37,300 bases of DNA from a virus (IMGVR_UViG_3300048838_001135:1-37300), one strand, 5' to 3'; counted from the first letter of the stretch, positions 7,059-35,798 are shown. A program made the numbers and translations. The notes: a model not told the origin generated them from the letters alone.

Positions 7059-7177
7059 TGGACACAATTTCTGAATTTCAAAGTTTTGCGGCAGGATATG
7101 TGTGGGGCATTCTGACAGTGTTCACTTGCATTATTGTCAGCTGGGTGATTGTTCGTTTTTCGGGACCTGGCAAGTGA
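7058..7177 (+). CDS. Tiny single-pass membrane protein
   Basis: A 39-aa frame starts at the ATG in the TAATG overlap with the previous stop, with GGGAG seven bases upstream. The product has a soluble N-terminus (MDTISEFQSF), one hydrophobic segment (AAGYVWGILTVFTCIIVSWV) and a short basic tail ending GPGK. Its 3' end overlaps the convergent AMP-ligase gene by 41 bases. It resembles the small membrane protein at 9876-9989 (both have F..G..[WY]GIL). A holin-like or membrane-anchoring role is possible but unproven. Confidence 0.6.
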   Translation: MDTISEFQSFAAGYVWGILTVFTCIIVSWVIVRFSGPGK

Positions 7178-8150
7178 ATTTTCGTCTTTTTTTCCCACTT
7201 TCAAAATATTCGATCTCATTAACGATTGAAATTCGAATTGGTCTAGCATAACGTGGAATACAGGAACCCCACGTTTGGTCTTTTAAAAACATGTCGCTTT
7301 GAACTCCATCAAAAAGCAAGATCTTGGCGCATACGATATTGCCCAAGATCTTATTTTTTTCACCGAAAACGACACAATCACGCACCATCGGACTTTTCAT
7401 GATCAGATTTTCAACTTCTGCTGGGTAGACTTTTTCACCACCAACCATGATGATTTCAGATTCACGGCCCATGATCCTAAGGGCACCGTCCTCACGTTCT
7501 ATGACGCGATCTTCTGTGTTGTAAAACCTGCCCACCATGGCATTTTCGTTATCAAGATCGCCTAAAATCCAGTCTTTTGCTTTCAGCCAAAGCTGACCAG
7601 CGACGATCAGATGTTCGTCCCTAAGTTTAAACCAAAGGGAATCATCGCTATCGCTTTCGATGTCCATAATTCCGGTCTCGGTGAGACCGTAGGTCTGCTT
7701 AAATTTAACAAAAGGTAGCTTTCGGACAAGAAAATCAAGCGTTTCCTGGGGCATCGGTTCGCTGCCGTAAGTGATCATGCGCACTGTTTTGAGAAGATCC
7801 GTAAAACCATCATCCCATGATATTTTAAGAAGTGTCAAAAAAGATGGGTTGACGGGCAACACCTCGACACCGTTGCAATACACGCAATCAAGAACATCAT
7901 CCAGCTGCCGCGATCTTGGAAAAAAAAGCTGTGATCCGCTCGTTATTGCTCGGATCACAGTGTTGATGCCCCCGATATGCGCCAAGTTGAGGAAACACAA
8001 CATTTTGGTAGGTCGAGAAGGATTATTGATATAATGATCCAGCATTTTCGTTAAATCTGCAAGTATCCGTTTTGGCTTACCAGTGCTGCCCGAAGTCTGA
8101 AAAACAATGCCAACATTCCCGTCAAGATCATCAAATAGCTGTTCACGCAT
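7137..8150 (-). CDS. Compact acyl-activating AMP-ligase (ANL family), N-terminally short
   Basis: The 337-aa product has the ANL adenylation motifs: the Ser/Thr/Gly loop TSGSTGKPK at residues 19-27, YGLTETG, the NTEDRV region equivalent to the usual TGD motif, GRESEIIMVGGEKVYPAEVE, and a C-terminal ESGKKRR that fits the catalytic-Lys motif. These enzymes activate a carboxylate with ATP and pass it to CoA or a carrier protein. Typical members have 150-200 more residues before the loop. Here the start at 8150 is fixed by the preceding SDR stop, so the short form is real. It is last in an operon with an acyl carrier protein, the likely acyl acceptor. Confidence 0.8.
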   Translation of the reverse strand: MREQLFDDLDGNVGIVFQTSGSTGKPKRILADLTKMLDHYINNPSRPTKMLCFLNLAHIGGINTVIRAITSGSQLFFPRSRQLDDVLDCVYCNGVEVLPVNPSFLTLLKISWDDGFTDLLKTVRMITYGSEPMPQETLDFLVRKLPFVKFKQTYGLTETGIMDIESDSDDSLWFKLRDEHLIVAGQLWLKAKDWILGDLDNENAMVGRFYNTEDRVIEREDGALRIMGRESEIIMVGGEKVYPAEVENLIMKSPMVRDCVVFGEKNKILGNIVCAKILLFDGVQSDMFLKDQTWGSCIPRYARPIRISIVNEIEYFESGKKRRKFTCQVPKNEQSPS

Positions 8151-8151
8151 T

Positions 8152-8841
8152 TTAAAAAACCCCGCCTAAGTATATTGTTTGACCAGTTATCATTTCAGAT
8201 CTATCAGAAATATAAAAATCACACACATTTAAAACATCAGCAAAGCTAGCTAAACGACTTATTGCTTGCCTGTCAAGAACGGCACCGATCTTCTCGGCAG
8301 GAACATTTTTTATCAGATCAGTGTGGATAGGATTGGGTCCAATGCAGTTGACTGTAATTCCGTAGTCCGCATATTCTCGCGCAAGAATGCGTGTTAGCGA
8401 TTCCACGGCCGCTTTGCTGCTTGCATAGGCAGATTCACCAGCAAGATCCATAGGAACCGCGCAAGTACTGAAATTGATGATCCTGCCCCATTTTTTAAAC
8501 ATCATTTTCTTAGCAGCCTCACGCGCCAGAACCATCGCGGAGATCGTGTTGACGACATATATTTTTTCTATAGTTTCTATTGGCGTTATCATGGAATGAT
8601 TCATGGATGCAACGCCAGCGCAATTTATCAAAATATCAAAATCGTATGATGATAAGTAAGCCGCAATATCGTGCGGCAGCGTAAGATCACCGTAAATATG
8701 ATAATAGCCAGCGTGTTCATAAATTTCTTCTGGCGGCAGCGTACGCGACATGCCGAGCACAAAAAAACCCTTTGACAGATAATGTGACGTTACAGCACAG
8801 CCAATGCCCCTGCTAGTTCCCGTTACGAGGACAGTTCTCAT
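8152..8841 (-). CDS. Short-chain dehydrogenase/reductase (FabG-like)
   Basis: This is a complete classical SDR of 229 aa: nucleotide-binding GTSRGIG (8-14), NCAG, and the catalytic Ser125, Tyr139 and Lys143 (FSTCAVP; SAYASSK). The C-terminal MITGQTIYLGG is typical of FabG-like reductases. Likely reaction: NAD(P)H-dependent reduction of a 3-ketoacyl-ACP or of a sugar ketone. It overlaps the upstream carrier-protein gene by 29 bases, which favours an acyl-ACP substrate. A sugar-acting SDR such as Campylobacter PtmA is the alternative. The ligase follows after one base. Confidence 0.85.
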   Translation of the reverse strand: MRTVLVTGTSRGIGCAVTSHYLSKGFFVLGMSRTLPPEEIYEHAGYYHIYGDLTLPHDIAAYLSSYDFDILINCAGVASMNHSMITPIETIEKIYVVNTISAMVLAREAAKKMMFKKWGRIINFSTCAVPMDLAGESAYASSKAAVESLTRILAREYADYGITVNCIGPNPIHTDLIKNVPAEKIGAVLDRQAISRLASFADVLNVCDFYISDRSEMITGQTIYLGGVF

Positions 8842-9112
8842 CGATTAACCCCCAGATATAGTTTGCAAGACGGTCTAAATTTACGAATGGGCTGTTTTCT
8901 TGTGACAACGCACGATCATCGACGATTATAATTTCGCACGGGAAAACATCGTTAACACGTTTTTCAACCGTCACCAAGAACCGCACAAAATCGATAGAAT
9001 CGAAAAGACCTTTGCTGCCGAACAGCCTGGTTTTTTCGTTGTCAAAATCTTTTTTATGGGTCTGTTCAATCACGGTCTCGCGCAAGATTTGTAAAATCTC
9101 TTGTTTCATCAT
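8813..9112 (-). CDS. Acyl carrier protein
   Basis: The 99-aa product (start MMKQEILQIL) has the carrier-protein helix I and then GLFDSIDFVRFLVTVE, with Ser39 in the DSI motif as the 4'-phosphopantetheine site. A helical end (NLDRLANYIW) completes the fold. The ATG at 9112 overlaps the stop of the GNAT gene (ATGA), with AAGGA upstream. It needs a host phosphopantetheinyl transferase, as none is seen here. With ligase and SDR in the same operon it likely carries an acyl chain that is reduced and then handed to an acyltransferase. Confidence 0.82.
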   Translation of the reverse strand: MMKQEILQILRETVIEQTHKKDFDNEKTRLFGSKGLFDSIDFVRFLVTVEKRVNDVFPCEIIIVDDRALSQENSPFVNLDRLANYIWGLIDENCPRNGN

Positions 9113-9675
9113 TTGATCCTTCCGTCCCAATTACAAATTGGAAAATCGCGTTGAAAACTCGAAAACTCTTTTTTATTAAACCACATTGCTTTATCAAGCC
9201 ACATGTAAATAAGTTTTTTGTCAATCCCATTTTTTATTATATATCTATCAAAATATGGTGCTCGCAAATAACCGTGATGATCATGTAGGGCTATCACTCC
9301 GGCGTTCGATTCCATGACTTCTGCCTGGATCTTTTCTATCGGCAAATTTGTAAAAACCCAATTGTAAAAGTATGGCGGGATCATGCCGCCAATGCCAACA
9401 TGCTCGTCGTTTCCGATATAAAAACCCCATCCTGTGAGATTGTGATCTGGCGAATAGTCGCTTAGATTTATAAGACCGATTGGAATACCGCGAAATTCGA
9501 TGATCCAGTGATAGTAGTGTGTTTTTTGATTTGACCTGTCGAACCATTCTTTGTGTTTTGCATAGTCGTCGCTCGGTAGATCGCTGATCATGTGGCGCGA
9601 TACACGATGTTTTGTGCGCCATTTCCAGATGCGACCACAATCTTCAGGGATCGTTTCGCGAAAGGTGAAAGCCAT
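9109..9675 (-). CDS. PseH-like GNAT N-acyltransferase
   Basis: The 188-aa product has the GNAT layout of the RimJ/PseH branch: FRETIPEDCGRIWKWRTKHR, then IPIGLINLSD, the acyl-CoA loop region EHVGIGGMIPPYFYNW, and LPIEKIQAEVMESNAGVIAL with HHGYL. The last segment closely follows PseH, which acylates the 4-amino group of a 4-amino-4,6-dideoxy sugar nucleotide. As first gene of the operon with ACP, SDR and AMP-ligase, it may use an acyl-ACP donor. A TATAAT lies 13 bases upstream of the start (9693-9688, minus strand) but has no -35. The ribosome site (GGGA) is weak. Confidence 0.78.
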   Translation of the reverse strand: MAFTFRETIPEDCGRIWKWRTKHRVSRHMISDLPSDDYAKHKEWFDRSNQKTHYYHWIIEFRGIPIGLINLSDYSPDHNLTGWGFYIGNDEHVGIGGMIPPYFYNWVFTNLPIEKIQAEVMESNAGVIALHDHHGYLRAPYFDRYIIKNGIDKKLIYMWLDKAMWFNKKEFSSFQRDFPICNWDGRIK

Positions 9676-9702
9676 GTAATGTCCCGTATTATAGCGTTAA
9701 TG

Positions 9703-9740
9703 TTGACAATGGGCTGCGAAATGTATATAACACGTTATAT
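9703..9740 (+). promoter_or_regulatory. Strong promoter with palindromic operator over the -10
   Basis: TTGACA (9703-9708), 17 bases, then TATAAC (9726-9731): the best sigma-70-type promoter in the window. The -10 is embedded in the perfect inverted repeat ATATAACACGTTATAT (9725-9740; 7-bp arms, 2-bp centre). A repressor bound there would block this promoter and perhaps also the divergent GNAT operon. It points to the small genes at 9876-10386. Confidence 0.65.
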
Positions 9741-9875
9741 TGTTCTTGGGCAATAAAAAACCAGCATTTGCCATAGAAAACAAATAATTACAAAAAAATC
9801 TAAAGATCTTCAGCGAAAATGTCGATAAGGCAGATGTTGGTTTTGATTTAAACGACTAACGGAAAGGAAAAAACA

Positions 9876-9989
9876 ATGATAAAAAATGAAGGATTAAACG
9901 CATTTCGCGGTATGTTTTACGGCATTCTTTTTGGGGTTTCGTTGTGGACTTTGCTCATAGCCATCGCCTATTTCTGGCTGCGAGCCTAA
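9876..9989 (+). CDS. Tiny single-pass membrane protein
   Basis: A 37-aa frame from ATG 9876 has a strong ribosome site (GGAAAGGA). The product has a polar start (MIKNEGLNAFRG) and one transmembrane segment (FYGILFGVSLWTLLIAIAYF), ending WLRA. It is the first gene after the strong promoter at 9703 and is followed by a terminator at 10007. It resembles the 7058-7177 protein in pattern. Function unknown; holin-like or inhibitory membrane peptides are candidates. Confidence 0.65.
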   Translation: MIKNEGLNAFRGMFYGILFGVSLWTLLIAIAYFWLRA

Positions 9990-10006
9990 ACCACCCGTTA
10001 GTCTTT

Positions 10007-10987: not shown

Positions 10988-11452
10988 GTGCAAATTGAAG
11001 TCATCGAAATAGATAAATTGATCTTAGATCCTAAAAACGAACGAAAGCATGAGACAAAAAATATCAGTGCAATAAAAGCAAGCCTCGATAAATTCGGTCA
11101 GCAAAAACCCGTTGTGATTGATCATAAGGACAAGATACTAGCTGGCCATGGAATGGTCATGGCTGCGAAAGATCTGGGCTGGAAAACCGTAAGCTGTGTT
11201 CGTTCCGCACTAAAAGGAAAAGCAAAGTCGGCTTACAGGGTCGCTGACAATAAGACCAGCGATCTATCTGATTGGAATATAGAAGCACTGTCTTGGACGC
11301 TGAATGATATTGGCGATGAATTTGAGATGAAAGACTTTGGCTTTGAAAAAGATGACTGGGGTCTGCCTGATAATGACAGCGATGATGACAATTCTGAAAA
11401 TAAAAAGAAAACTATTACATGCCCGGAATGTGGTTTAGAATTTAAGGCATAA
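10988..11452 (+). CDS. ParB/sulfiredoxin-domain protein with C-terminal zinc knuckle
   Basis: The 154-aa product starts at GTG 10988 with AGGAG seven bases upstream. Residues 1-95 follow the ParB N-terminal nuclease-like fold: EVIEIDKLILDPKNERKHE, a helix, QKPVVIDHKDKILAGHGMV and AAKDLGW. A linker (VADNKTSDLSDWN), an acidic stretch and a C-terminal CPECGLEF half-ribbon follow. In phages such proteins often stand just before the terminase genes, where a role in DNA binding or modification is supposed. There is no HTH domain as in true plasmid ParB, so partitioning is unlikely. Confidence 0.75.
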   Translation: MQIEVIEIDKLILDPKNERKHETKNISAIKASLDKFGQQKPVVIDHKDKILAGHGMVMAAKDLGWKTVSCVRSALKGKAKSAYRVADNKTSDLSDWNIEALSWTLNDIGDEFEMKDFGFEKDDWGLPDNDSDDDNSENKKKTITCPECGLEFKA

Positions 11453-12113: not shown

Positions 12114-12312
12114 GAATGAGGAAAACCCGTTTGAAATAGCCTCGAAAACCTACATCTATCTGCATGAATTAAATCCAGATCTCGCAAAAAACTGGCTCGA
12201 CAGATATCGCGGTTGTCGCACATCGAAGGACGTGTTAAAGCTGTCTGGTGAGTATGTCTCTTTTATTATAGATTCTGGCTACAGGAAATTTTACGATGAA
12301 AATTATTGCTGA
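12082..12312 (+). CDS. Hypothetical 76-aa protein
   Basis: The start is ATG 12082, with GAGGGAG about 9 bases upstream; an in-frame ATG at 12064 lies before this ribosome site. The product is helical, with NPFEIASKTYIYLHELNPDL and KNWLDRYRGCRTSKDVLKL, and ends FYDENYC. It overlaps both neighbours (32 and 17 bases), so it is part of the tight packaging operon. Not recognised. Confidence 0.55.
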   Translation: MKAKLHQIQLKNEENPFEIASKTYIYLHELNPDLAKNWLDRYRGCRTSKDVLKLSGEYVSFIIDSGYRKFYDENYC

Positions 12313-13255
12313 CATTGGTTCAAACTGGACAAGAATTGGTGATCTGCTTCTCGCGGCAGACATGGCAAAATGCTGTGACTGCGATGCCTTTAAGATCCAG
12401 TATTTTTCAGATGCTGATCTTTATGCTCCTGGTGCTGTAAGGCGCAACGACAGGCTTAAGAATACAATCGATCTTGATCTGCTTTGGCGACACTGTAATA
12501 GACTTGGCATTGAATTCATGGCATCGGTTTTCAATCCGGACGACATTGAAGACCTGAACCCATACGTTGAAAGATATAAGGTTGCAAGCGGTGAGGCAAA
12601 GCACTACCGTCTTTTAGAGGAGATCGCAAAAACAGCAAAACCAGTTATCGTGAGCACAGGATGTTACGATGATTTCAACTATCTTGCTGAAATATTTGAA
12701 CCAGATCTTGTGACGCTGCTTTATTGCGTAGCGGAATATCCTGCGAGACTGACTGATATTCGGGTTCTTTCGGACTTGATAAACAATTCACCGTTTAAGG
12801 TTGGGTTCAGTGATCACAGTTATGATCTTGTGGCAACAGCAGAAATTGCGCGAGAATATGGCTGCACAGTGTTCGAACGGCATTTCAATCCATCATATAT
12901 GACATCTCTTGAATCTCCAGATTCAGGTCCTCATGCATTAAACCCATCAGATATGGCCTATTATTGCCGCTATCTAAAACAAAAAGGATCTATTTTTCAG
13001 CCAGATAAAAACACGTATTTTAGAAGACGACCAATCGCCACTGAAAAAATAAGATGCGGTGAAAAGCTGGTTTATGGTCAAAATTGGGATTTTCTGCGGC
13101 CACAAAAAAAAGAACATGACGGCGATATTAACTGGGAATTTCACAATAAAGAACTATTTGCGCAACGCGAAATAGCTTTTGGCGAAAGTTTAAGTTGGAG
13201 TAATTGTGGAATTTGTACCGCACAGTCAGAAACAGAATGCAGTACTACTATCTGA
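12296..13255 (+). CDS. NeuB-family nonulosonic acid synthase
   Basis: The 319-aa product has the NeuB/PseI/LegI signature: ADIGSN (5-10), DAFKIQYF, YKVASGEAKH, KPVIVSTGCY, LLYCVAEYPA, GFSDHS with His174, and FERHFN with His196; these two histidines match the metal ligands of NeuB. Residues about 244-300 (RRRPIATEKIRCGEKLVYGQ to LRPQ) fit the C-terminal antifreeze-like (SAF) domain. The enzyme condenses phosphoenolpyruvate with a six-carbon amino sugar to give a nine-carbon acidic sugar. Length is near the family norm (about 340). It sits between the small terminase region and TerL and overlaps TerL by 50 bases. Which sugar (sialic, pseudaminic or legionaminic type) cannot be told. Confidence 0.88.
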   Translation: MKIIADIGSNWTRIGDLLLAADMAKCCDCDAFKIQYFSDADLYAPGAVRRNDRLKNTIDLDLLWRHCNRLGIEFMASVFNPDDIEDLNPYVERYKVASGEAKHYRLLEEIAKTAKPVIVSTGCYDDFNYLAEIFEPDLVTLLYCVAEYPARLTDIRVLSDLINNSPFKVGFSDHSYDLVATAEIAREYGCTVFERHFNPSYMTSLESPDSGPHALNPSDMAYYCRYLKQKGSIFQPDKNTYFRRRPIATEKIRCGEKLVYGQNWDFLRPQKKEHDGDINWEFHNKELFAQREIAFGESLSWSNCGICTAQSETECSTTI

Positions 13256-17994: not shown

Positions 17995-18912
17995 ATGGCA
18001 GTATCAGTTGACCAGCTAACGGCATTGACCCATCGTTACATCCAGCCAAAGCTGCACGACAACATTTTCGATACCAATCCACTTTTGAACAAGATTCTCA
18101 AAAGCGGACAGTACAAATCACTTTCTGGCGGGACCACGATTGATCTACCGCTTAACTACGCGCAAGGCGCTGGCGGTTGGTTCGCTGGGGCTGATTCCCT
18201 CTTGACGAACGATGTAGAGAACATCTCGGTCGCTCGCTACAATTGGGCATCTGTCTATTCACCCATCGCTATTTCAGAAGAAGACATTCTGAAAAATGGC
18301 GGTGATGCTGGCGTTATCAAGCTTTTGGCTGCAAAGAGCCAAATTGCTGAAAAGACGATCAAGGATTTGGTTGGCACAGGTCTTTATTCCGATGGCACCA
18401 ACACAAAGTCTATCGTTGGTCTTAGAGATCTTGTCGCTGTCGATCAGACAGTTGGCGGTATCTCTCAGTCAACAAACTCATGGTGGCAAGCGCAAGTGGA
18501 CAGCACCACGACAACGCTGACCATTTCAGCGGTAAATACGCTGTATGAACTGGCATCGATCGACAGTAAACCGAATTTGATCGTGAGCTCTCGCGCGCTT
18601 TACAATTCGTTTTACAATCTTCTGCAACCGCAGCAAAGATTCTATGACGACACGACCGCAAAGGCCGGTTTCCAGAATCTAATGCTTAATGGCGCAGTGT
18701 GGATGAGCGATTCTCATTGTCCCGCTTATCATGCCTTTGGCTTGACACTTGAGGACATTCACTTGTTCTATCATCCAGAAATGAATTTCTCGACCGATCC
18801 GTTCCAGAGCCCAATCAACCAACGCGTCCGGACAAGCCGCGTCACTTGGATGGGATGCCTTGCATCGTCGAACAACCGTAAACATTTCAAGCTAAGCGCA
18901 ATAACCGCTTAA
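17995..18912 (+). CDS. Major capsid protein
   Basis: The 305-aa product is HK97-fold-like by layout. The N-terminus (DQLTALTHRYIQPKLHDNIF) and DTNPLLNKILKSGQYKSLSG precede the beta-rich part with SVARYNWASVYSPIAISEED, where many coat proteins have similar Tyr-Asn-Trp segments. DLVGTGLYSDG and a C-terminal region (RTSRVTWMGCLASSNNRKHF) complete it. It has the strongest purine-rich ribosome site of the block (AAAGGAAAGGAAAG). Place after scaffold and before a decoration candidate confirms the call. Confidence 0.87.
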   Translation: MAVSVDQLTALTHRYIQPKLHDNIFDTNPLLNKILKSGQYKSLSGGTTIDLPLNYAQGAGGWFAGADSLLTNDVENISVARYNWASVYSPIAISEEDILKNGGDAGVIKLLAAKSQIAEKTIKDLVGTGLYSDGTNTKSIVGLRDLVAVDQTVGGISQSTNSWWQAQVDSTTTTLTISAVNTLYELASIDSKPNLIVSSRALYNSFYNLLQPQQRFYDDTTAKAGFQNLMLNGAVWMSDSHCPAYHAFGLTLEDIHLFYHPEMNFSTDPFQSPINQRVRTSRVTWMGCLASSNNRKHFKLSAITA

Positions 18913-18934: not shown

Positions 18935-19408
18935 ATGAGTTTTAATTTCCCACCAAAGATTCTTTTGACTAGCCTCAGTGCCGTTGTTAGTGCTCGCAGT
19001 GCTAACAGCCCAGAAGTTGGCGACAGAATGTGGTACGAAGGAAAAGAGTACATTTACGTATACAATGAAGGAACAACCCAAGCATCTCCTGGCTACGGTC
19101 TAACACCCGTTGCCGCGAGTGCAACATCGCCTTACACTTGCACGGTGTCGTCTAACAGCGGTTCCCCGCTTGTAGGTGTTGTCTACAATGCTACGCTGAC
19201 CACTGCGACTTACGGTTGGGTTGTGAGCAAAGGCACTGTTCCAGTACTACCTGGTGCATCGTATGCCGTTGGAACCCCGTTGACGCTTGATCTTAACGGA
19301 GTTTTCGTCACTGCAATCGTTACGGCAATTCATTGCCATCAAGCGATCGCAACCGTAACCGGTGTGACTGGCACTGCTACCAGTGCTCACGTTTACGGCA
19401 ATCTTTAA
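18935..19408 (+). CDS. Capsid decoration or head-surface protein candidate
   Basis: The 157-aa product is rich in Ser, Thr, Ala and Gly, with short strands separated by turns (SPEVGDRMWYEGKEYIYVYN; VTAIHCHQAIATVTGVTG). The position after the coat gene is where decoration proteins usually lie, and the all-beta character fits. It is followed directly by the Maf-like glycosyltransferase, so its exposed Ser/Thr residues are natural candidates for sugar attachment. That last point is inference. Confidence 0.55.
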   Translation: MSFNFPPKILLTSLSAVVSARSANSPEVGDRMWYEGKEYIYVYNEGTTQASPGYGLTPVAASATSPYTCTVSSNSGSPLVGVVYNATLTTATYGWVVSKGTVPVLPGASYAVGTPLTLDLNGVFVTAIVTAIHCHQAIATVTGVTGTATSAHVYGNL

Positions 19409-19438: not shown

Positions 19439-20473
19439 ATGAGGACATCCAACATCATTCTGGAATTGCAGCCCTATACGAACCAGATCGCTTTCACGCC
19501 AAAGCAGATGTATGCTAATGCGTGTTCAAGCGATGCAGAAACGCTGAATCGTTGGCTCGACACTTGGTTGTCAAATATCTCTGAAAATCAAAAAAGATTT
19601 GGTCCTTTCAAGGAGAATTCTGTGGGTTCTCTTTGGAAATCCAAAGAGGGATTGCCCTGCATCATAGCCGGTGCAGGGCCGTCACTCACTAACAACATTC
19701 ACCTTCTGAAAGACAGGCCATCGTGGTTACCGTTAGTATCGTGTCTCCATTCTTTCCATGCCATGGAGGATGCCGATGCGCGAGTTGATTATTATGTCAC
19801 ACTTGATGCTGGTACAGACATTACGACAGAGGAAGTTACAGAAGGCGGAAAAAAACCAGAAATCGAGTACTGGGAAAAAACAAAAGAAAAAACCTTGATC
19901 GCATTTATCGGAACAAGCCCAAAGCTTATTGAAAAATGGCAGGGCAAAATCCTTTGGTATAATGCTCCTGTTCCTGGCGGCAAGTACAAAGACGAATGCG
20001 ATAAGATCGAACCGTTTAATTGCTGGGTAAGCAACGGTGGTCATGTTCTTGGTGCATGTTTTTACATCGCAAAGGCATGGCTAGGATGTCCGACAACGCT
20101 GTTTATCGGTGCTGATTTTGCGTTTTCAAATCGCGACAAGGTTCGGTTCCATGCATGGGACAGTAAATATGATGCGAACATCGGGCAGACAATCCGATGG
20201 GTTGATATTTGGGGCAATAGCGTTAAAACGTGGCCGAGCTATTGGAATTTTGCCCAGTGGTGGGCATATGTCAGTAAAACTTTGCCAGGGACCTATGTTA
20301 ATTGCTCAGAGGACGGTATTTTAGGCGCATTTCGCGAAGGAAATCTCGATTCAATTCAGCAAAAATCTCTGGCCGAAATGCTCGAAATTTATAAACTTCA
20401 TGACAGATTTGCGCATCAGGCTACAAAACCAGATGAGTTTTTGGATCCTGATAGCAAGTTTATTCTAATCTAA
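19439..20473 (+). CDS. DUF115/Maf-type (6-hydroxymethylpterin kinase MptE-like) glycosyltransferase
   Basis: The 344-aa product has the DUF115 signature: CIIAGAGPSLTNNI (74-87) near the start, YYVTLDAG (118-125), SNGGHVLGACFYIAKAWLGC (198-217) and FIGADFAFSN (222-231). Members include the flagellin Maf/PseE transferases of Campylobacter and relatives, which attach nonulosonic acids to Ser/Thr; other members are MptE-like pterin kinases. Here the Maf reading is favoured because the genome also has NeuB- and CMP-sugar-synthetase-like enzymes. It lies among head/tail genes, suggesting a virion protein as acceptor. The ribosome site is far (GAGG, about 16 bases) and AT-rich, so expression may be low. 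Confidence 0.75.
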   Translation: MRTSNIILELQPYTNQIAFTPKQMYANACSSDAETLNRWLDTWLSNISENQKRFGPFKENSVGSLWKSKEGLPCIIAGAGPSLTNNIHLLKDRPSWLPLVSCLHSFHAMEDADARVDYYVTLDAGTDITTEEVTEGGKKPEIEYWEKTKEKTLIAFIGTSPKLIEKWQGKILWYNAPVPGGKYKDECDKIEPFNCWVSNGGHVLGACFYIAKAWLGCPTTLFIGADFAFSNRDKVRFHAWDSKYDANIGQTIRWVDIWGNSVKTWPSYWNFAQWWAYVSKTLPGTYVNCSEDGILGAFREGNLDSIQQKSLAEMLEIYKLHDRFAHQATKPDEFLDPDSKFILI

Positions 20474-21137: not shown

Positions 21138-21539
21138 ATGCCAATGGTTAAAGTGTGGAATCGCAATAGCGTAGTGCATAAAGAGATGTTTAAAGGCGAG
21201 GAGATCGTTATCCAGCCTGGGAAATACATAACAATGGATTTCAACGAGGCTAATGATTTTCGCGGTCAGTTCTTCACGCCAAAATTCAACAAAGGCGGTG
21301 CTCAGACGGTCGATTCCATGAAATACATCGAAATCGATAAATGCGACTATAAATCGGCACTGGATGAACTCAATAGTCGCGGTGAAGATCGTGCTAAAAA
21401 AGCATACGTATGCATGAAATGCAATAAGGAATTCACTTCCAAGCGGGCACTGCTAACTCATGTAAAAAACACTCATAGCGATGAGCTAGCAGATGATGAA
21501 ACCCGCGAGGAACTGGAAGCGGAATTAGAAGGGGCATAA
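21138..21539 (+). CDS. Virion-region protein with C2H2 zinc finger
   Basis: The 133-aa product has a beta N-terminal part (MVKVWNRNSVVHKEMFKGEE; IVIQPGKYITMDFNEAND), then a textbook C2H2 finger YVCMKCNKEFTSKRALLTHV, continuing to KNTH: Cys-x2-Cys-x12-His-x4-His, about residues 94-113. An acidic tail follows. The N-terminal half resembles small head or tail structural proteins. A classical C2H2 finger in a phage structural block is unusual; it may bind DNA, RNA or another virion protein. Confidence 0.7.
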   Translation: MPMVKVWNRNSVVHKEMFKGEEIVIQPGKYITMDFNEANDFRGQFFTPKFNKGGAQTVDSMKYIEIDKCDYKSALDELNSRGEDRAKKAYVCMKCNKEFTSKRALLTHVKNTHSDELADDETREELEAELEGA

Positions 21540-25065: not shown

Positions 25066-25941
25066 ATGGCATCAGCATTAGAAAGACGCTATGAATTAAT
25101 GTCGCAGCAAATTCAAAGTCGTGAAAACGCGCAGCGACAGCAGGAGCAAGAGGCACTACGCAGAAGGTTCGCATCGATGGGGGCTCTTGGATCCGGAGCG
25201 GCACTGAAATCTGAACAAAAGATTGCAGATCTATCGGCAAGGCGACAAGCCGAGCAAATGGGATCTCTTGAAGCAACAAAGCTTGCGGAACAAGCACAAG
25301 CAGAAGAAATTGAAAAGCAGCGTGAATTTTCACGTTCTGAACGTCTAGGCGGCCAAGAATTCGCTGGATCACAGGCCGAGCTACAAAGACGATTTGCCAC
25401 TGGCGAGAGGCTAGGCGGACAGGAATTTGCAGGATCACAAGCTGAATTGCAAAGACGATTTGCGACAGGTGAAAGGCTTGGTGGTCAGGAATTTGCTGGG
25501 ACACAGGCAGAACTGCAGCGTAAATTTGCTACCGGTGAAAGACTTGGCGGCCAAGAATTCGCCAGAGGAGAACGGCTAGGTGGTCAAGAATACATGTCTG
25601 ATGAGGCAAAAAAAGTACGTGAATTTCAAATGCGTGAACGTGCTGGCGCTGAATCATTTGCAACTCGAGAGCGAGAATCATCTCAAAAATTCGCAGCGAC
25701 CCAAGCCGAAAAAGAACGTGTTGCACAGGCAAGCAATTTGGCTACACAACTTAACTCGCAGGAAAAAATCGCAGCTGCCGCTCAAAAACTTCAGAAAGAA
25801 ATGTTTGAACGTGAATTCGATATTAATGCGATCGTTTCGGCATACAACATGGGATGGCGGCCATCTTCTGATGAATTAGGAAATTTGCAAAATAAACTTA
25901 GGCAGGGCGGCCAGTATATTCGCGGTGCATTAATAACATAA
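25066..25941 (+). CDS. Helical repeat virion protein (hendecad coiled coil)
   Basis: The 291-aa product is almost wholly helical and Gln/Glu/Arg/Ala-rich. The N-terminal helix (residues 1-35) and an Ala/Gly hinge lead to residues 93-158 with three near-perfect 22-residue repeats starting RLGGQEFAG and ending RRFATGE, and a fourth partial one. Twenty-two residues are two hendecads, suggesting a right-handed coiled coil. The C-terminal part (ALSAYNMGW-like SSDELGNLQNKLRQGG) is less regular. Location next to ejection proteins suggests a needle, fibre stalk or ejected protein. Confidence 0.65.
   Translation: MASALERRYELMSQQIQSRENAQRQQEQEALRRRFASMGALGSGAALKSEQKIADLSARRQAEQMGSLEATKLAEQAQAEEIEKQREFSRSERLGGQEFAGSQAELQRRFATGERLGGQEFAGSQAELQRRFATGERLGGQEFAGTQAELQRKFATGERLGGQEFARGERLGGQEYMSDEAKKVREFQMRERAGAESFATRERESSQKFAATQAEKERVAQASNLATQLNSQEKIAAAAQKLQKEMFEREFDINAIVSAYNMGWRPSSDELGNLQNKLRQGGQYIRGALIT
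25342..25539 (+). repeat. Three tandem 66-bp coding repeats
   Basis: Units at 25342-25407, 25408-25473 and 25474-25539 encode the 22-residue repeats. The protein is better conserved than the DNA, as many third positions differ (for example GGCGGCCAA, GGCGGACAG and GGTGGTCAG for Gly-Gly-Gln). The repeats are therefore not a recent duplication and are held by selection on the protein. Confidence 0.9.
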
Positions 25942-29732: not shown

Positions 29733-31124
29733 ATGGCAAGCCCAAGTGTAACCTATAATTTCGTTAACGGAACCGTGGCTGATGGTGATCAAGTTGACAC
29801 CAACTTTCAAGATCTGATCAATGCCATGACTGATGGAACAAAATCATTTTCGATCGATGCTCTTACGGTCGCTGGTGCAGCATTATTTAACGGTGCTGTG
29901 ACGCTAGGCAACGCAACTAGCGATGATGTTGTTGTGACCGGATATCTTGCATCTAACCTGATCAGCAAGACGACGAACACCTATGCGTTGGGATCGTCAA
30001 CTATTCTATATTCTGCCGTATATGCGACAAGAATACTTGCTGGCGATGGCACTGCCGCAGCCCCTGCATATTCGTTTAATAGCACTGATAATGGCGATAA
30101 TGGCATGTATCTATCAGCTGCGAACGAGATTTCCTTTGCAACGGCTGGGACGCAGAGGATGGTAATTGAAGCTGGCGGCTTCATTGGGATAAACACCAGC
30201 AATGCAGCTAACCTATTTCACATTGTTGGTAATGCTAATGCATATCCTGTATATGTTCAAGCCAACACCACATCAGGACAATCCTACGGCCCGATTATCA
30301 CTGCCGGAACAAACAGTTCTGATATGGCATTTCTGGTAAAGAATGGTGCAGATAGTGCTACATATTTTGCAGTTAGAGGAGACGGCAACGTCGGTATCGG
30401 CACGGCTAGTCCTGGATTCAAACTAGATGTTTATGCTGATATCGGCAACTATGCTGCAAGAATCTACAATGATAATGGAGCCGCCAAGGGACTATACATC
30501 TATGCAAAAGCAAATGACGTGGGCGCAACGCCTGTATTGATGTGTGAATCTGCTGGTGCAAGTAATATATTCGTAGTAAATGACACAGGCAACGTCGGTA
30601 TCGGCACGGCTAGTCCAACCTATCGCCTAAGCGTTGTCGGTTCTGCTACTGACGCTACTCCTGCTATTGAAGTGAACAACTCTAGTGATGCTACAAAAAT
30701 AACTCTAAACTGCAACGGCACGATAACAGCGGATACATCTGCCTGGGCATCAGCAGCTGGAACTACTGTAGTTATCGACTCGAATACGTTTAAATTACTT
30801 TCGTCTTCGCTTCGATACAAAACAGAGATTCAAGAACTGTCCAGCGAAATTGATAGCAGCAAGATATACGACTTACATGCTGTAACGTTTCGTTATAAGA
30901 CGGACGATAAGCGCACCCTTGGTTATATCGCTGAAGAAGTGAACGATATAATCCCTGCTGTCGTGCACAGAGAAGCAAAAGGACCTAACGGAGAAATGGT
31001 TCCTGAGAGTGTTGCATATTCTCTCTTGCCTGTCCTTATTATCGAGGAAATGAAAAAACAACAAGCCCTCATCCAGGCACTCACCGAACGCCTAAATAAA
31101 CTTGAATCAAAAATAGCGGGATAA
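29733..31124 (+). CDS. Tail fibre with C-terminal S74 chaperone domain
   Basis: The 463-aa product starts at ATG 29733 (AGGAGAA upstream). Residues 1-80 are beta-rich (TYNFVNGTVADGDQVDTNFQ). The middle has GNVGIGTASP twice, the usual repeat of trimeric fibres. The end has the peptidase S74 intramolecular chaperone: SSLRYKTEI with the Ser/Lys pair of the self-cleavage site, FRYKTDDKRTLGYIAEEV, and a closing coiled coil (KQQALIQALTERLNKLE). The domain helps the trimer fold and is then cut off. This is the likely receptor-binding protein; a terminator overlaps its stop. Confidence 0.85.
   Translation: MASPSVTYNFVNGTVADGDQVDTNFQDLINAMTDGTKSFSIDALTVAGAALFNGAVTLGNATSDDVVVTGYLASNLISKTTNTYALGSSTILYSAVYATRILAGDGTAAAPAYSFNSTDNGDNGMYLSAANEISFATAGTQRMVIEAGGFIGINTSNAANLFHIVGNANAYPVYVQANTTSGQSYGPIITAGTNSSDMAFLVKNGADSATYFAVRGDGNVGIGTASPGFKLDVYADIGNYAARIYNDNGAAKGLYIYAKANDVGATPVLMCESAGASNIFVVNDTGNVGIGTASPTYRLSVVGSATDATPAIEVNNSSDATKITLNCNGTITADTSAWASAAGTTVVIDSNTFKLLSSSLRYKTEIQELSSEIDSSKIYDLHAVTFRYKTDDKRTLGYIAEEVNDIIPAVVHREAKGPNGEMVPESVAYSLLPVLIIEEMKKQQALIQALTERLNKLESKIAG
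30384..30616 (+). repeat. Pair of 29-bp direct repeats in the tail fibre gene
   Basis: The 29 bases at 30384-30412 recur exactly at 30588-30616; both encode GNVGIGTASP. The intervening sequence differs. Exact identity within otherwise unrelated sequence suggests recombination or strong constraint on this fibre motif, and could allow fibre-length changes. Confidence 0.85.
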
Positions 31125-31146
31125 TTATTTCCCGCCTTTTGGTTTT
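31116..31146 (+). terminator. Rho-independent terminator after the tail fibre gene
   Basis: GCGGGA (31116-31121) pairs with TCCCGC (31130-31135) over an 8-base loop that includes the fibre stop codon, followed by a T-rich run (31137-31146 and on). It ends the long late transcript. Confidence 0.75.
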
Positions 31147-31181
31147 TTGCCGCCTTTTCCTTTTTTAGTTCCGCATGGCAT
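31125..31181 (-). CDS. Very small lysine/glycine-rich protein
   Basis: An 18-codon frame, MPCGTKKGKGGKKPKGGK, starts at ATG 31181 with AAGGAG eight bases upstream and ends in TAA at 31125, one base from the fibre stop. Eight of 18 residues are Lys and six Gly. It lies alone on the minus strand in a 163-base gap. The ribosome site, ATG and extreme composition argue that it is real. Function unknown; nucleic-acid or membrane binding would suit the charge. Confidence 0.5.
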   Translation of the reverse strand: MPCGTKKGKGGKKPKGGK

Positions 31182-31287
31182 AGTCAATTCTCCTTTTAGT
31201 TTATTTTTCTTGATAAAACAGTTGAAACATAAGACTATTCGCATTAGTGTTGTATTTCAATATTCTTTTACTATTTGGATTTTATTT

Positions 31288-31623
31288 ATGACATTTTTCG
31301 ATTCACAGCTGCTGTTTTACGCGATAGTTCTTACCTTTATCGGTTTTTTAATACTTCAAAATCTTTATTTCCATAGAAAAGCAAAGTTTTTGTCTTTGAA
31401 CATAAAGGATCTTGAAGCTGATGTTACAGTTCAAAGAAGTAAAAACGACACATTAAATAGAGAGATCGAACATCTTCGAACTGATTTACTTCGGGCACAG
31501 AAAAACCCAGATGTTATTAGGGTTCTTTCAGATCTCAACAAAAACGGCACTGTTTTGCGTGTTGAAAGAATAGATCCTGATACTGTTTTTCAGTGGTCTC
31601 CTGGATCTGGCGTAAGGAATTAA
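31288..31623 (+). CDS. Membrane-anchored coiled-coil protein
   Basis: The 111-aa product from ATG 31288 has one N-terminal transmembrane segment (LLFYAIVLTFIGFLILQNLY), a basic patch (HRKAKF) and a coiled coil (DLEADVTVQRSKNDTLNREI; HLRTDLLRAQ). This design matches inner-membrane spanins, which pair with a lipoprotein during lysis. The only small lipoprotein with similar style lies far away (3676). The ribosome site is poor. It is directly followed by the PseB-like gene, so it may instead belong to the glycan cassette. Confidence 0.5.
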   Translation: MTFFDSQLLFYAIVLTFIGFLILQNLYFHRKAKFLSLNIKDLEADVTVQRSKNDTLNREIEHLRTDLLRAQKNPDVIRVLSDLNKNGTVLRVERIDPDTVFQWSPGSGVRN

Positions 31624-31624
31624 G

Positions 31625-32524
31625 ATGAAATCTTGCATTATAACTGGCGGCACTGGAACGCTTGGCCGCGAACTAATCAGGCAGATCACAGTTGGAAAGT
31701 ATTTTGATCCTATAGTGGTTTTTTCGCGAGACGAGGCAAAGCATATTGAACTAGAACGTGAATATGATAACGTCCGTACGTTTTTGGGTGATGTTGTCCG
31801 CAGTGAAGACATAGGATCTTGCATAAGAAAATACCAGCCAGATACCGTTTTCCACTGTGCTGCGCTTAAGCATGTCGATCGTGGCGAGGTTCAGACAACA
31901 CAGTATATTAATGTCAATCTTAATGGCACGATCAACGTCACAAATGCATGTTCTAATTTTCGCGTTAAGAATATGGTTTTCTTTTCGACTGATAAAGCAG
32001 TGCTGCCAATAAACGCCTACGGTATGACAAAGGCGTTGGCTGAAAAATACATACAAAGCAAGTGGTCAGATGATGAAAAGAGCACTAATTTTGCTATTTA
32101 TCGCTGGGGCAATATTCTTGGTTCTAACGGATCTGTGCTTAAGCAGTTTGTGAAAGACATTATCGATAAGAAAAGAATCAAAATCACTCATCAAGATATG
32201 ACCCGCTTTTGGCTCACGATAAGCGAGGCTGTATTCTATGTGCTTAATAGCTATCTTGAACGAACGATCCAGCCAAGGATCTGCCCCACGATCAAGGCGG
32301 CAACGCTGATCGATCTTGCCTATGCTGTGGCATCTTGCCTTAGCATGGAGTACGATCTTGATTTCAAGATCACAGGGATTCGGCCTGGCGAGAAGATCCA
32401 TGAACATCTGAAATCTGATCATGATTTTTGCATCAGATCTGATAATGCGCCAAGATACAAAGCTGATGAACTAGAAGCAAAAATTAAATCAACGGTATTG
32501 GAGCTCGCTGGATGGCTAAAATAG
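31625..32524 (+). CDS. PseB-like UDP-sugar 4,6-dehydratase
   Basis: The 299-aa product has a Rossmann loop TGGTGTLG (7-14), FHCAALKHVD (76-85), the catalytic STDKAVLPINAYGMTK with Thr122-Asp123-Lys124 and Tyr132-x3-Lys136, RWGNILGSNGS, and DMTRFWLT. This matches the soluble FlaA1/PseB family that converts UDP-GlcNAc to a 4-keto-6-deoxy (often 5-epimerised) sugar, the first step of pseudaminic-type and related pathways. Length is slightly below PseB (about 330). Start ATG 31625 after AAGGA. All catalytic residues are present. Confidence 0.82.
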   Translation: MKSCIITGGTGTLGRELIRQITVGKYFDPIVVFSRDEAKHIELEREYDNVRTFLGDVVRSEDIGSCIRKYQPDTVFHCAALKHVDRGEVQTTQYINVNLNGTINVTNACSNFRVKNMVFFSTDKAVLPINAYGMTKALAEKYIQSKWSDDEKSTNFAIYRWGNILGSNGSVLKQFVKDIIDKKRIKITHQDMTRFWLTISEAVFYVLNSYLERTIQPRICPTIKAATLIDLAYAVASCLSMEYDLDFKITGIRPGEKIHEHLKSDHDFCIRSDNAPRYKADELEAKIKSTVLELAGWLK

Positions 32525-33171
32525 GAATCATTGGTGCTCGGGGAAATATGGGAACACGCTACGGTCTTATCACCAAGGCTCTTGGCCATGAAGTGATCGA
32601 AGTTGATCTAGGATCGTCTAACAGACCACTTTTGCACGATTGCGATGGGATCATCATAGCAACGCCAACGGCAACACATTTCAATCTGATCATGGAATGG
32701 GGTCATAAGCCAATACTTTGCGAAAAGCCTATCAGCAAGCATGTTGATGAGATCGATGCATTGTTCTCACAAAAAGAATGTAAAAAACTCAATGTTCGTA
32801 TGATCAATCAGTACGAATATTATATTTTAAAGCAAAAAGAATTTGAGAAGATTGTTAAAGACGTTCCTTATCGTGGTTTACAGCCTCAGACGTTTTTCAA
32901 CTATTACAAGCATGGAAACGATGGGCTGATCTGGGATTGCATAAACATCATTGGTCTAAGTGGAGGGTCAGTTCAGATACATGGAACTGGTTTTATTTGG
33001 GAATGCATGATCAACAACATCCAACTTTGCATCAGCGAGATGGATCGTGCTTATATCTGGAACATCAGAAGTTGGCTCAATAAATTTGACGAGAATCATG
33101 AGTATATTGTTAAAGCACATAAAAAATGCCATGAAATGGAGCAAAAACTAAAAAATGACTACAAGAGTTGA
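32512..33171 (+). CDS. Short Gfo/Idh/MocA-type oxidoreductase
   Basis: The 219-aa product has an N-terminal NAD(P)-binding GIIGARGNMG (5-14), GIIIATPTATHFNLI and the family's CEKPIS motif (Lys of EKP being catalytic). The C-terminal part (residues 120-219) is shorter than the usual 200-residue beta-sheet domain. Such enzymes oxidise or reduce sugar hydroxyls, often before a transamination. It lies between the dehydratase and the cytidylyltransferase and overlaps both. Substrate unknown. It could be a trimmed version that is still active, or one with changed function. Confidence 0.7.
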   Translation: MAKIGIIGARGNMGTRYGLITKALGHEVIEVDLGSSNRPLLHDCDGIIIATPTATHFNLIMEWGHKPILCEKPISKHVDEIDALFSQKECKKLNVRMINQYEYYILKQKEFEKIVKDVPYRGLQPQTFFNYYKHGNDGLIWDCINIIGLSGGSVQIHGTGFIWECMINNIQLCISEMDRAYIWNIRSWLNKFDENHEYIVKAHKKCHEMEQKLKNDYKS

Positions 33172-33874
33172 AATATGCATTCAGGCACGTAACAGTTCAA
33201 GCAGAATGCCAGGAAAAAGCATTAAGCCCCTAGGCGATGGCACGATCATCAGCTATATGCTGCAAGCGATCAAAAACGCAATAAACCCACTTCGCGGTGA
33301 TGCTACGGTTTTTAACTTTGATTTTGGTGTGAATTTGCTGGTTCCAGAAGACGAGTTTTCTGACTGGTCGTCGCGTCACAAAGATAATTTTGACATGATC
33401 TTTGGCGGTGATCTTAACAACGTATTCTCTCGGTTTTGGACAATTTACAATTTGAAAAAACCAAAATACGTTATGCGTCTTACTGCCGATTGCCCGTTGA
33501 TTCCGCAGCCAGCTATCAACCGATCGATCTATCAATGCACCAAGCATCGGCTTGATTATCTGTGCAATAGCTGGGAACATATACGCACAACACCGGACGG
33601 CCACGATGTTGAAATCATGTCGGCAGATGCAATGGAATGGCTGTTTAAGCACAATTCAGATCCAGAGGATTTCGAACACGTTACGATCGCTTTAAGAAAG
33701 CATGTTCCATCTCATCTCAGGATCGGAGTGTTACTGACAAAAGAGGACAATTCTCACATAAAATGCTCGATTGACACGCCACAGGACTTTGATGCTGTCA
33801 ACTATAGGCTTAAATCGAGTAGTGAAAAACGAAAAAAAGCAACGGAAATGGGGTTTGGAATCTATGACTATTGA
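33155..33874 (+). CDS. SpsF/CMP-sugar synthetase-like cytidylyltransferase
   Basis: The 239-aa product starts with the nucleotide-binding IQARNSSSRMPGKSIKPLGD (9-28), the family motif QAR-x5-R-x-P-x-K, and has DLNNVFSRFW, VMRLTADCPLIPQPAI and TPDGHDVEIMSADAMEWL. This is the SpsF branch of the CMP-Kdo/CMP-sialate synthetase superfamily, which joins CMP to an acidic sugar to make the transferase donor. It pairs naturally with the NeuB-like synthase. The ribosome site is weak (GGAG at 14 bases). It overlaps both neighbours. Confidence 0.78.
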   Translation: MTTRVEICIQARNSSSRMPGKSIKPLGDGTIISYMLQAIKNAINPLRGDATVFNFDFGVNLLVPEDEFSDWSSRHKDNFDMIFGGDLNNVFSRFWTIYNLKKPKYVMRLTADCPLIPQPAINRSIYQCTKHRLDYLCNSWEHIRTTPDGHDVEIMSADAMEWLFKHNSDPEDFEHVTIALRKHVPSHLRIGVLLTKEDNSHIKCSIDTPQDFDAVNYRLKSSSEKRKKATEMGFGIYDY

Positions 33875-35090
33875 TAACATTATGCTTGATCGTGCAAATC
33901 GGTGCATAGCCCAAGGCTATCTCACAAATTCTAAAAATCCAGAGACAGACATTTTTGGCGTATTCCCTACGCATTTTAAAAAAGGCAAGGGCTGCTGGAT
34001 CTATGACACTGAAAACGAAAGGTACATGGATTTAGTGTGCGCTCTTGGCTGCAATCTTTTTGGCTATGGAAATTTGCTGATAGAAAATCAAGTCACTGCT
34101 GATTTTGGCCTATGCCTTGGCGGTAGCACCGTGCATGAAGTCTATGCTGCCGAAGCGGTTAAGAATGTTTTTCCTTGGATTGAAAAGATCAAATTTGTAA
34201 ATTCTGGCACCGAAGCTTGCATGGCAGCGGTTAGGATCGCCAGATCTTACACTGGACGACCGTATATTCTAAGCCAGGGCTATCACGGTTGGTCCGATGA
34301 ATTTGTATCGCTTACACCGCCAGCCAACGGGATCAATCGCTTTTCTTCTATCTTTGAACTGCCGCAGGATTTTGATGATATCCCAGATGAGATCATTTCG
34401 AACACTGCGGCCATCATCATTGAACCTGTCATTTTGGACGATAGCAGAGCTCGCATTGAATGGCTCAAAAAGCTTCGGACGCTTTGCACAGAAAAAGGCA
34501 TTGTGCTGATTTTCGATGAAATTGTTACGGGTATCCGTTATCCAGATCATGCCGTAGCGAAGCACTGGAACATCACACCAGATCTGTTCTTACTTGGGAA
34601 AGCTATCGGCAATGGTCATAAGATTGCCCTCGTAGCTGGCCCTAGCGCGCTCATGGACGGCAAATATTTTGTATCAGGCAGTTATTTTGGCCAAATTACA
34701 TCGCTGCAAGCTGTGCGGGCAGTGATTGAACTAATAACAAAAAAGGCCAATCAATATAATATCAACGTTCTTAACGATAAAACAAAATATTTTAGAGATT
34801 CTTTTAACTCGCTTGGTCCTGACATTGTTCGCCTTGAAGGCTGGGGGAATCGATGCAATTTCGTTGGTAGCGATTACAATCTGGCTCTTTTTCGGCAAGA
34901 AATGATCAAGGCACGTTATTTCACTAAGACAACATTCCTTTCAAATTTTGATATTTGTGATCATTTTTCAGATATTCTCTATACGGCAAAAATGATATTA
35001 AGTCGCATTGCTCTTGGTGAGATCAAACTTGAAGGCAAGATGCCTGTTAAACCGTTTTCACAAGTTGTAAGGGAGAAAGCCAATGGATAA
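33864..35090 (+). CDS. Class III PLP aminotransferase (glutamate-1-semialdehyde mutase-like)
   Basis: The 408-aa product (ATG 33864) has the PLP-phosphate motif NSGTEACMAAVRIAR (113-127), GYHGW, IFDEIVTGIR and the Schiff-base Lys246 in GKAIGNG. It belongs to the acetylornithine/glutamate-1-semialdehyde branch, not the DegT branch used by PseC. It likely adds an amino group to a keto intermediate made by the neighbouring oxidoreductase or dehydratase. It lies in the sugar cassette, so it is probably a sugar-amine enzyme. The frame is open upstream to 33771, but that is inside the previous gene. Confidence 0.78.
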   Translation: MTIDNIMLDRANRCIAQGYLTNSKNPETDIFGVFPTHFKKGKGCWIYDTENERYMDLVCALGCNLFGYGNLLIENQVTADFGLCLGGSTVHEVYAAEAVKNVFPWIEKIKFVNSGTEACMAAVRIARSYTGRPYILSQGYHGWSDEFVSLTPPANGINRFSSIFELPQDFDDIPDEIISNTAAIIIEPVILDDSRARIEWLKKLRTLCTEKGIVLIFDEIVTGIRYPDHAVAKHWNITPDLFLLGKAIGNGHKIALVAGPSALMDGKYFVSGSYFGQITSLQAVRAVIELITKKANQYNINVLNDKTKYFRDSFNSLGPDIVRLEGWGNRCNFVGSDYNLALFRQEMIKARYFTKTTFLSNFDICDHFSDILYTAKMILSRIALGEIKLEGKMPVKPFSQVVREKANG

Positions 35091-35271
35091 AGTAAAATTG
35101 AAAGAACTGATGTTGAAGAAAAAAGAATTGGATGATCGTGCCGCAGCACTGCAAAAAGAACAGCTGGAATGGAACAAAAAGATTGTTCAACTAACGGGTC
35201 AACAAAAAATGAGCTTTGAAGATCTTCTTTTGAAAGTGATCGACGATGATCAAGCGGGGGTTCAGAGTTGA
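35083..35271 (+). CDS. Small coiled-coil protein
   Basis: The 62-aa product (ATG 35083, GGGAG upstream, overlapping the aminotransferase stop) is a charged helix (VKLKELMLKKKELDDRAAAL; QKEQLEWNKKIVQL) with a short acidic end. The next gene, a GNAT, starts in a 4-base overlap. It may be a partner or stabiliser of the acyltransferase. Not recognised. Confidence 0.5.
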   Translation: MDKVKLKELMLKKKELDDRAAALQKEQLEWNKKIVQLTGQQKMSFEDLLLKVIDDDQAGVQS

Positions 35272-35798
35272 TAGATTTTGGATATGGTGTTCGGCTCACA
35301 GCTGTAGAGCAAAAATCGTTAGAATCAATAAGGTATTATCGTAATTTGCCGGAACTAAATCGTTGGTTTCGGCAAAACACTGATCTTAGCCAATGGGAAA
35401 ATCTCAACTATTGGCAAACTGTATGGTCTGGTCATCAGCATAAGTTTTTTCAAGTGTATCCTAACGGATCCGACGACTATATTGGTGTTGCGGGTCTTTG
35501 CTATATCGATCGGCAGAATTCTCGCGCAGAATTTTCGCTTTGGATCATGCCAGAACAGCAGCATCATGGTTTTGGAACTGCTGCATTGAAGACGCTTTTT
35601 GACCATGGATTTGACGATTTAAATTTGCATCTTATTTATGGCGAGACGTTTGACGGCAATCCTGCGCTGGATCTTTTTGTAAAAAAGCTTGGAATGCGGT
35701 ATGATGGTTGTCGTCAAGAGTTTTATTTTAAACGCGGCAAATACATTGACGCACATGTCATTTCGCTAACGGGGGCTCAGAGACAATGGAACAGATGA
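35268..35798 (+). CDS. GNAT acetyltransferase (RimJ/PseH-like)
   Basis: The 176-aa product starts with TTG at 35268, overlapping the previous stop (TTGA) with a G-rich ribosome site. It has SIRYYRNLPELNRWFRQNTD, YIGVAGLCYIDRQNSRAEFS, the acyl-CoA loop region QQHHGFGTAALKTLFDHGF and LHLIYGETFDGNPALDLFVK, ending KLGMRYDG. This is the RimJ/RimL/PseH type that acylates amino groups. As the last gene of the sugar cassette it is the second GNAT of the genome. It may N-acylate a second amino position of the sugar. Confidence 0.75.
   Translation: MIDFGYGVRLTAVEQKSLESIRYYRNLPELNRWFRQNTDLSQWENLNYWQTVWSGHQHKFFQVYPNGSDDYIGVAGLCYIDRQNSRAEFSLWIMPEQQHHGFGTAALKTLFDHGFDDLNLHLIYGETFDGNPALDLFVKKLGMRYDGCRQEFYFKRGKYIDAHVISLTGAQRQWNR

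Follow-up and report, generated by a model that had tools for sequence, protein, structure and literature searches.

The 37,300-base stretch IMGVR_UViG_3300048838_001135 analyzed here (the window) is an IMG/VR virus record in which terminase, portal, major head protein and tail fiber genes are recognized with PHROGs, identifying it as a tailed phage, and it carries genes for making and probably transferring a sugar of the nonulosonic-acid type that form a core set in a lineage of uncultured, podovirus-like phages. The assignment of the pathway to this chemical class is well supported: the core genes encode a PseB-like dehydratase, a Gfo/Idh-like oxidoreductase, an SpsF-like cytidylyltransferase, a class III aminotransferase (AT3), a PseH-like GNAT acyltransferase (GNAT2), a NeuB-family synthase and a Maf-like transferase of the MptE-like/DUF115 family (Table 1). 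The system is real, conserved and surprising, and its acceptor, proposed below to be a protein of the phage particle, is a good hypothesis. An earlier reading made from the sequence alone had named eight sugar genes in three loci covering a quarter of the genome; all eight lie where it placed them, keep their catalytic residues and exceed the Pfam gathering scores, but the loci number four, and the eight genes take up 17.7% of the window, or 23.1% when the genes for an acyl-AMP ligase (7137), a FabG-like reductase (8152) and an acyl-carrier-protein-like protein (8813), which that reading did not mention, are added.

The gene set recurs with a fixed layout in the lineage, which comprises about 90 inspected IMG/VR contigs reached by capsid- and transferase-based searches; queries built from one or two sequences returned almost no matches in IMG/VR or GTDB, their peptide patterns being too specific, and larger alignments were used. 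A 36.4-kb phage found by a terminase search (G001), with capsid, portal and terminase proteins 71-73% identical to those of the window, contains all 11 sugar genes, 36-76% identical and unchanged in order. A search with the capsid sequence, which takes no account of the sugar genes, yielded 17 contigs including G001 and a close relative, L002: the major capsid protein (MCP), a small conserved protein and then the Maf-like protein are encoded consecutively in 13/13 contigs that reach far enough, and NeuB is upstream of the terminase, either adjacent or separated from it by one to three small genes, in 12 of the 13 that cover the region. The 12-member Maf-like alignment retrieved 107 related stretches, 80 of which were kept, and the MCP-small protein-Maf order holds in those with enough upstream sequence. 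In the fixed layout, the tail fiber gene is followed by those for the PseB-like protein, Gfo/Idh, cytidylyltransferase, AT3 and GNAT.

Among the 29 contigs of at least 26 kb, in which the core sugar genes share one strand with the virion genes, we found NeuB in 27, the cytidylyltransferase in 27, AT3 in 28, GNAT2 in 27, PseB in 25, Gfo in 25 and the Maf-like gene in 28, the last count being partly by construction, since these contigs were mostly found via the Maf-like protein, and the others not. Several of the gaps fall at contig ends; Gfo is absent from G016 and G019, and PseB is relocated beside NeuB in G028 and G032, which ties the NeuB and PseB loci together. The proposed check for phages with NeuB, Maf and virion genes in one genome was thereby answered by dozens of metagenomic contigs with a fixed order, and the importance once ascribed to the sugar genes is supported by their being core across the whole lineage. 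Chance or contamination was considered and ruled out, given the position of the genes among virion genes and their recurrence in this order across dozens of metagenomes. In the isolated-phage collection, neither the Maf-like protein nor the cytidylyltransferase had a match, NeuB had only two weak ones, and the closest match to the window capsid was only 30% identical.

Profile searches and, for the DUF115 protein, structure prediction, which had been suggested as a check, place the NeuB, cytidylyltransferase and DUF115 proteins in the expected families. The residues that we take to matter in these families are the Asp-Lys pair and Tyr of PseB, the metal histidines of NeuB, the lysine of AT3 that binds pyridoxal phosphate (PLP), and the cytidylyltransferase loop. 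In NeuB, K33, Q35, K95, S98, S120, Y148, H174, E194 and H196 are invariant in 27 phages, so that both metal histidines (H174 and H196) pointed out earlier are confirmed, with PF03102 above its cut-off; a phage-only profile matches pseudaminic acid synthase 8h2c at 2.9e-24. In G019, G024, G027, G032, G038 and G041, the NeuB frames are only 254-284 amino acids long, and the profile match ends before the SAF region. The T-D-K...Y motif of the PseB-like protein, with the catalytic D, K and Y, is kept in 25 phages, the cytidylyltransferase retains its Q-A-R...R-x-P-x-K loop across the lineage and matches the solved cytidylyltransferase 6oew at 7e-17, and K246 and D218-E219 of AT3, the only aminotransferase found in the pathway, are invariant in 28 phages. 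The Gfo/Idh protein, 54% identical in G001, has an EKP motif invariant in 25 phages; its usual catalytic histidine could not be aligned, a departure from the family pattern. The NCBIfam equivalog models matched below their cut-offs, so that the families are sure and the exact substrates are not: the PseB-like protein scores 198 bits with its best model, TIGR03589 PseB (equivalog cut-off 408), PseH is the best model for both GNATs, at 89 bits for the one at 9109 and 48 bits for GNAT2 (93.1), and among the substrate-class models NeuB scores 93 bits with NeuB_NnaB (400) and 78 bits with another (340).

The sequence-only reading had proposed a nearly full route from UDP-N-acetylglucosamine (UDP-GlcNAc) to a glycosylated protein. 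A phage-borne nonulosonic-acid-type pathway with activation by cytidine monophosphate (CMP) and a Maf-related transferase stands, whereas the near-completeness does not, because neither PseC nor PseG was found. A DegT/PseC aminotransferase occurs in 0/34 phage records, in agreement with a local profile built from 71 bacterial sequences, and curated models for the PseG (TIGR03590) and NeuC (Epimerase_2) hydrolase/epimerase detected none in 11 phage records. PseG-profile matches among the 29 long genomes were rejected as evidence of a hydrolase, all twelve listed lying in the GNAT gene, a result probably due to the length of many of the bacterial PseG proteins used, which would accommodate a GNAT domain as well. 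A class III aminotransferase is present where the PseC type was not found. Bacterial loci with related cytidylyltransferases commonly have the order pseB-pseC-GNAT-oxidoreductase-cytidylyltransferase-AT3-pseG-pseI, with the cytidylyltransferase and AT3 sometimes fused, and the phage set resembles this arrangement minus PseC and PseG. Four bacterial loci (L065, L083, L084 and L071) likewise have no PseC or PseG within the available stretch and contain an RmlD-like reductase instead; the sugar clusters of L065 and L083 follow a Maf-type gene, and in Neptuniibacter L083 the cytidylyltransferase-AT3-oxidoreductase trio occurs with PseB and NeuB directly after it. Given that PseC and PseG were not found in the phages and that a few bacterial clusters are alike in this respect, the product is best named a nonulosonic-acid-type sugar; we infer its identity, the substrates of each step, and the roles of AT3 and the Gfo/Idh protein.

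The sugar genes are neither recent nor decaying. They are under purifying selection where tested, namely, in the six sugar genes covered by L002, for which the ratio of nonsynonymous to synonymous substitution rates between the window and this close relative is 0.03-0.11 (NeuB, 0.09; Maf-like, 0.03). In trees with 45 bacterial homologs, the phage sequences of the cytidylyltransferase, AT3, PseB and NeuB group, for each enzyme, in a single clade of their own (support, 0.999-1.0), and in the comparisons made, the phage proteins are ~25-35% identical to the bacterial ones. The bacterial homologs came from loci picked by one enzyme; thus, the trees show long separate evolution rather than a donor.

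The transferase is related to Maf proteins. The phage protein aligns with two bacterial flagellar Maf proteins in hhalign (94.5%, E 7e-8) and contains the GxGPSL and D-F-x-F motifs and an invariant D226. An AlphaFold2 model from 3 sequences was useless (predicted local distance difference test score, 31) and was discarded; the model from 12 sequences has a predicted template modeling score of 0.78, and its best Foldseek match is Maf 5MU5 (E 5e-7), a partial match with a TM-score of 0.47 by query length, followed by the archaeal HPPK/MptE of M. jannaschii and then by a human sialyltransferase, a CMP-sialic acid transferase. The previous designation as a DUF115/Maf-type transferase is upheld by PF01973 and the fold match to 5MU5; it falls short in that the protein has a single domain, without PF20157, and no link to flagellin. 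Other uncultured phages also have proteins annotated as MptE-like, so that the PF01973 domain alone is not new in phages. We found no paper on DUF115 with a phage glycosyltransferase or on sialic acid synthases as auxiliary genes of viruses.

The core set probably makes a CMP-nonulosonic acid, or a closely related sugar of the NeuB type, perhaps with help from the host, and attaches it to a protein, most likely the capsid protein or its small partner, before assembly. In the proposed route, the PseB-like dehydratase would convert UDP-GlcNAc to a 4-keto-6-deoxy sugar, which AT3 would aminate in place of PseC; a PseH-like GNAT would acylate the amine, the nucleotide would be removed by another enzyme, perhaps one of the host, NeuB would condense the sugar with phosphoenolpyruvate, and the SpsF-like enzyme would add CMP. 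The Maf-like enzyme would then link the sugar to Ser/Thr of a virion protein, with the capsid protein or the small partner the most likely target, in the cytoplasm. Maf proteins use CMP-activated nonulosonic acids (PMC11339370), and their action on flagellin takes place in the cytoplasm, ahead of export (PMC4065374). A cytoplasmic transferase whose gene has a fixed place right behind the capsid genes would most simply modify virion proteins before assembly, and gene order accordingly favors virion proteins over the host surface as the putative acceptor. More tentatively, and with slightly less than even confidence, we suggest that assembly in this lineage has come to include, as a fixed step, glycosylation of the phage's capsid or tail with a nonulosonic acid, using a stripped-down Maf and a PseC-independent class III aminotransferase pathway.

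Several observations weigh against virion glycosylation by a phage-encoded route. The route as encoded is incomplete, neither PseC nor PseG having been found in the genomes tested, AT3 occurs alongside PseC in most bacterial clusters and may do something else, and G016 has no NeuB. The assignment of the acceptor rests on gene order. The N-terminal Maf domain PF20157 (Maf_flag10_N), present in the L083 Maf, is absent in four phage proteins, which makes the phage protein Maf-like and not a full Maf, and archaeal MptE, a pterin kinase, falls within PF01973 as well.

One possibility, unlikely in our judgment yet to be taken seriously, is that the phage only supplements a host nonulosonic acid pathway, the host providing PseC, PseG and the bulk of the flux and the phage diverting or modifying the sugar (e.g., at C8, with the oxidoreductase and AT3). 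The failure to find PseC and PseG types in any phage tested would then be expected, the bacterial cytidylyltransferase-AT3-oxidoreductase trio is itself added to complete Pse pathways, and the phage EpaAB proteins are a modifying pair; however, phage-borne PseB, the first step, and NeuB, the committed step, would be needless for pure modification. Such supplementation is compatible with either acceptor. The acceptor itself is at issue if the sugar made during infection alters the host surface (flagellin, pilin, capsule or lipopolysaccharide), blocking rival phages or altering recognition, with the virion left uncoated. This, too, we consider unlikely, and slightly more doubtful: Acinetobacter prophages provide a precedent, albeit with different enzymes (PMC12053666), and bacterial Maf proteins act on flagellin (PMC4065374), but no polysaccharide glycosyltransferase was recognized, the transferase is devoid of the Maf N-terminal domain, and the genes are core and interleaved with the terminase, capsid and tail fiber genes on one strand, unlike variable conversion cargo. 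It is improbable that the PF01973 protein acts as a kinase of the MptE type or as a structural scaffold, with the sugar genes having some separate use, such as providing a nucleotide-sugar metabolite, because, although the family is named for MptE and M. jannaschii HPPK/MptE supplies the second-best structural matches, Maf 5MU5 matches best, the family next after MptE is a CMP-sialic acid transferase, and the cytidylyltransferase and NeuB constantly accompany this protein.

Besides the core set, the window contains a minus-strand operon for a ligase, a reductase, an acyl-carrier-protein-like protein and a second GNAT. This combination was found only in the window, G001 and L002 and, being restricted to the window and its two nearest relatives, represents an accessory module, which probably loads a special acyl group on the sugar, non-acetyl, e.g., hydroxyacyl. 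The acyl-carrier-protein-like protein keeps a D-S-(I/L)-D motif in three relatives, and the ligase has a shorter N-terminus than its 444-amino-acid homolog in G001, to which it is 36% identical.

Table 1. Sugar-pathway genes and neighboring virion genes of the window
Feature	Coordinates	Strand	Match
Acyl-AMP ligase	7137..8150	-	PF00501, 69 bits
FabG-like short-chain reductase	8152..8841	-	PF00106/PF13561, 118-121 bits
Acyl-carrier-protein-like protein	8813..9130	-	Weak DltC match
Second PseH-like GNAT, first gene of the accessory operon	9109..9675	-	GNAT Pfam; TIGR03585, 89 bits (cut-off 93.1)
NeuB-family nonulosonic acid synthase, C-terminal SAF-like stretch	12296..13255	+	PF03102, 109 bits
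MCP, possible acceptor	17995..18912	+	phrog_9953, 170 bits
Small conserved protein (157 amino acids) between MCP and Maf-like genes, possible acceptor	18935..19408	+	No Pfam match; in 28/29 long contigs
Single-domain Maf-like transferase (MptE-like/DUF115), directly after MCP and small protein	19439..20473	+	PF01973, 73 bits (cut-off 34.6)
Tail fiber with S74 chaperone domain, upstream of the PseB-GNAT block	29733..31124	+	PF13884; PHROG tail fiber families
PseB-like 4,6-dehydratase	31625..32524	+	PF02719 (Polysacc_synt_2), 243 bits
Short Gfo/Idh-like oxidoreductase	32512..33171	+	PF01408 (GFO_IDH_MocA), 33 bits
SpsF-like cytidylyltransferase (predicted CMP activation)	33155..33874	+	PF02348 (CTP_transf_3), 40 bits
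Class III PLP aminotransferase (AT3), glutamate-semialdehyde-aminomutase-like	33864..35090	+	PF00202 (Aminotran_3), 120 bits
PseH-like GNAT N-acyltransferase (GNAT2, core)	35268..35798	+	PF13302, 57 bits

The six-base repeat GCCATA spans bases 1-125 and again 37043-37300, at both contig ends, suggesting a contig break within a single array and an essentially complete genome of circular or permuted form. A similar MALA-type frame lies ~0.5-1 kb after the GNAT2 gene of G022, and a repeat frame of the WCW type is located close to the contig end in G028; these may represent a conserved repeat locus. In the virion region of the window, three imperfect 66-base repeats (25345-25559) yield a repeated ERLGGQEFAG motif, and a short protein (21138-21539), with homologs in several relatives, has a C2H2-zinc-finger-like C-terminus. 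Elsewhere, positions 5141-5428 on the minus strand encode a lone Arm-DNA-bind_3-like integrase N-terminal domain (25.1 bits, just under the cut-off) without a catalytic domain, with a 32% identical counterpart in G001, and positions 10988-11452 encode a stand-alone ParB-N-like domain protein whose homolog in G017 and G018 has 403-420 amino acids and, by eye, carries a DNA methyltransferase motif. A predicted lipoprotein of G016 (30126-31304 of that record) resembles, by eye, a papain-type cysteine protease.

Sialic-acid-like sugars are known as surface sugars of bacteria and animals, and the present results suggest that the phages of this lineage put a sugar coat on their own particles; our search of the phage literature turned up only enzymes altering a host-made sialic-acid-like sugar. 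A core phage pathway, kept as stably as the capsid genes, would make virion glycosylation normal in a widespread phage group and raises the question of what the sugar does for the particle, be it protection, adjustment of its charge or concealment from recognition. The minimal Maf domain and the possible PseC-free route could be of use in glyco-engineering.

The closest counterparts of the biosynthetic genes are bacterial pseudaminic-type clusters of the form pseB-pseC-(GNAT)-AKR or Gfo/Idh-SpsF-AT3-pseG-pseI, with SpsF and AT3 often fused, as in L082, L024, L089 and the Pseudosulfitobacter plasmid NZ_CP022416. PseB, GNAT, the oxidoreductase, the SpsF-like cytidylyltransferase, AT3 and NeuB/PseI are common to these clusters and the phages, but the phage sets are without PseC and PseG, their genes are in separate loci, and their proteins fall in separate clades. 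With the Maf flagellin glycosyltransferases (PF20157 plus PF01973; 5MU5), the phage protein has in common PF01973, both motifs and the best structural match, but it has 344 amino acids rather than ~660, no PF20157, and adjoins capsid instead of flagellin genes. We know of no nonulosonic acid pathway reported for chloroviruses or for glycosyltransferase-bearing mycobacteriophages. The EpaA/EpaB proteins of Acinetobacter baumannii prophages (PMC12053666) share with the lineage an enzyme of the CTP_transf_3 family that is encoded by a phage and acts on a nonulosonic acid; they differ in being two genes that convert a host-made capsule sugar, without NeuB, PseB or Maf, and are prophage cargo rather than core. 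No CTP_transf_3::aldo/keto reductase fusion of the EpaAB type was found, the window enzyme being unfused with 239 amino acids and the aldo/keto reductase profile matching 0/29 phages. Virus-encoded sugar enzymes linked to virion proteins are described for chloroviruses (PMC5408694) and for mycobacteriophages bearing glycosyltransferases (PMC11256854), in the latter with capsid glycosylation only suggested; in both, the sugars and the enzymes differ from those of the lineage described here.

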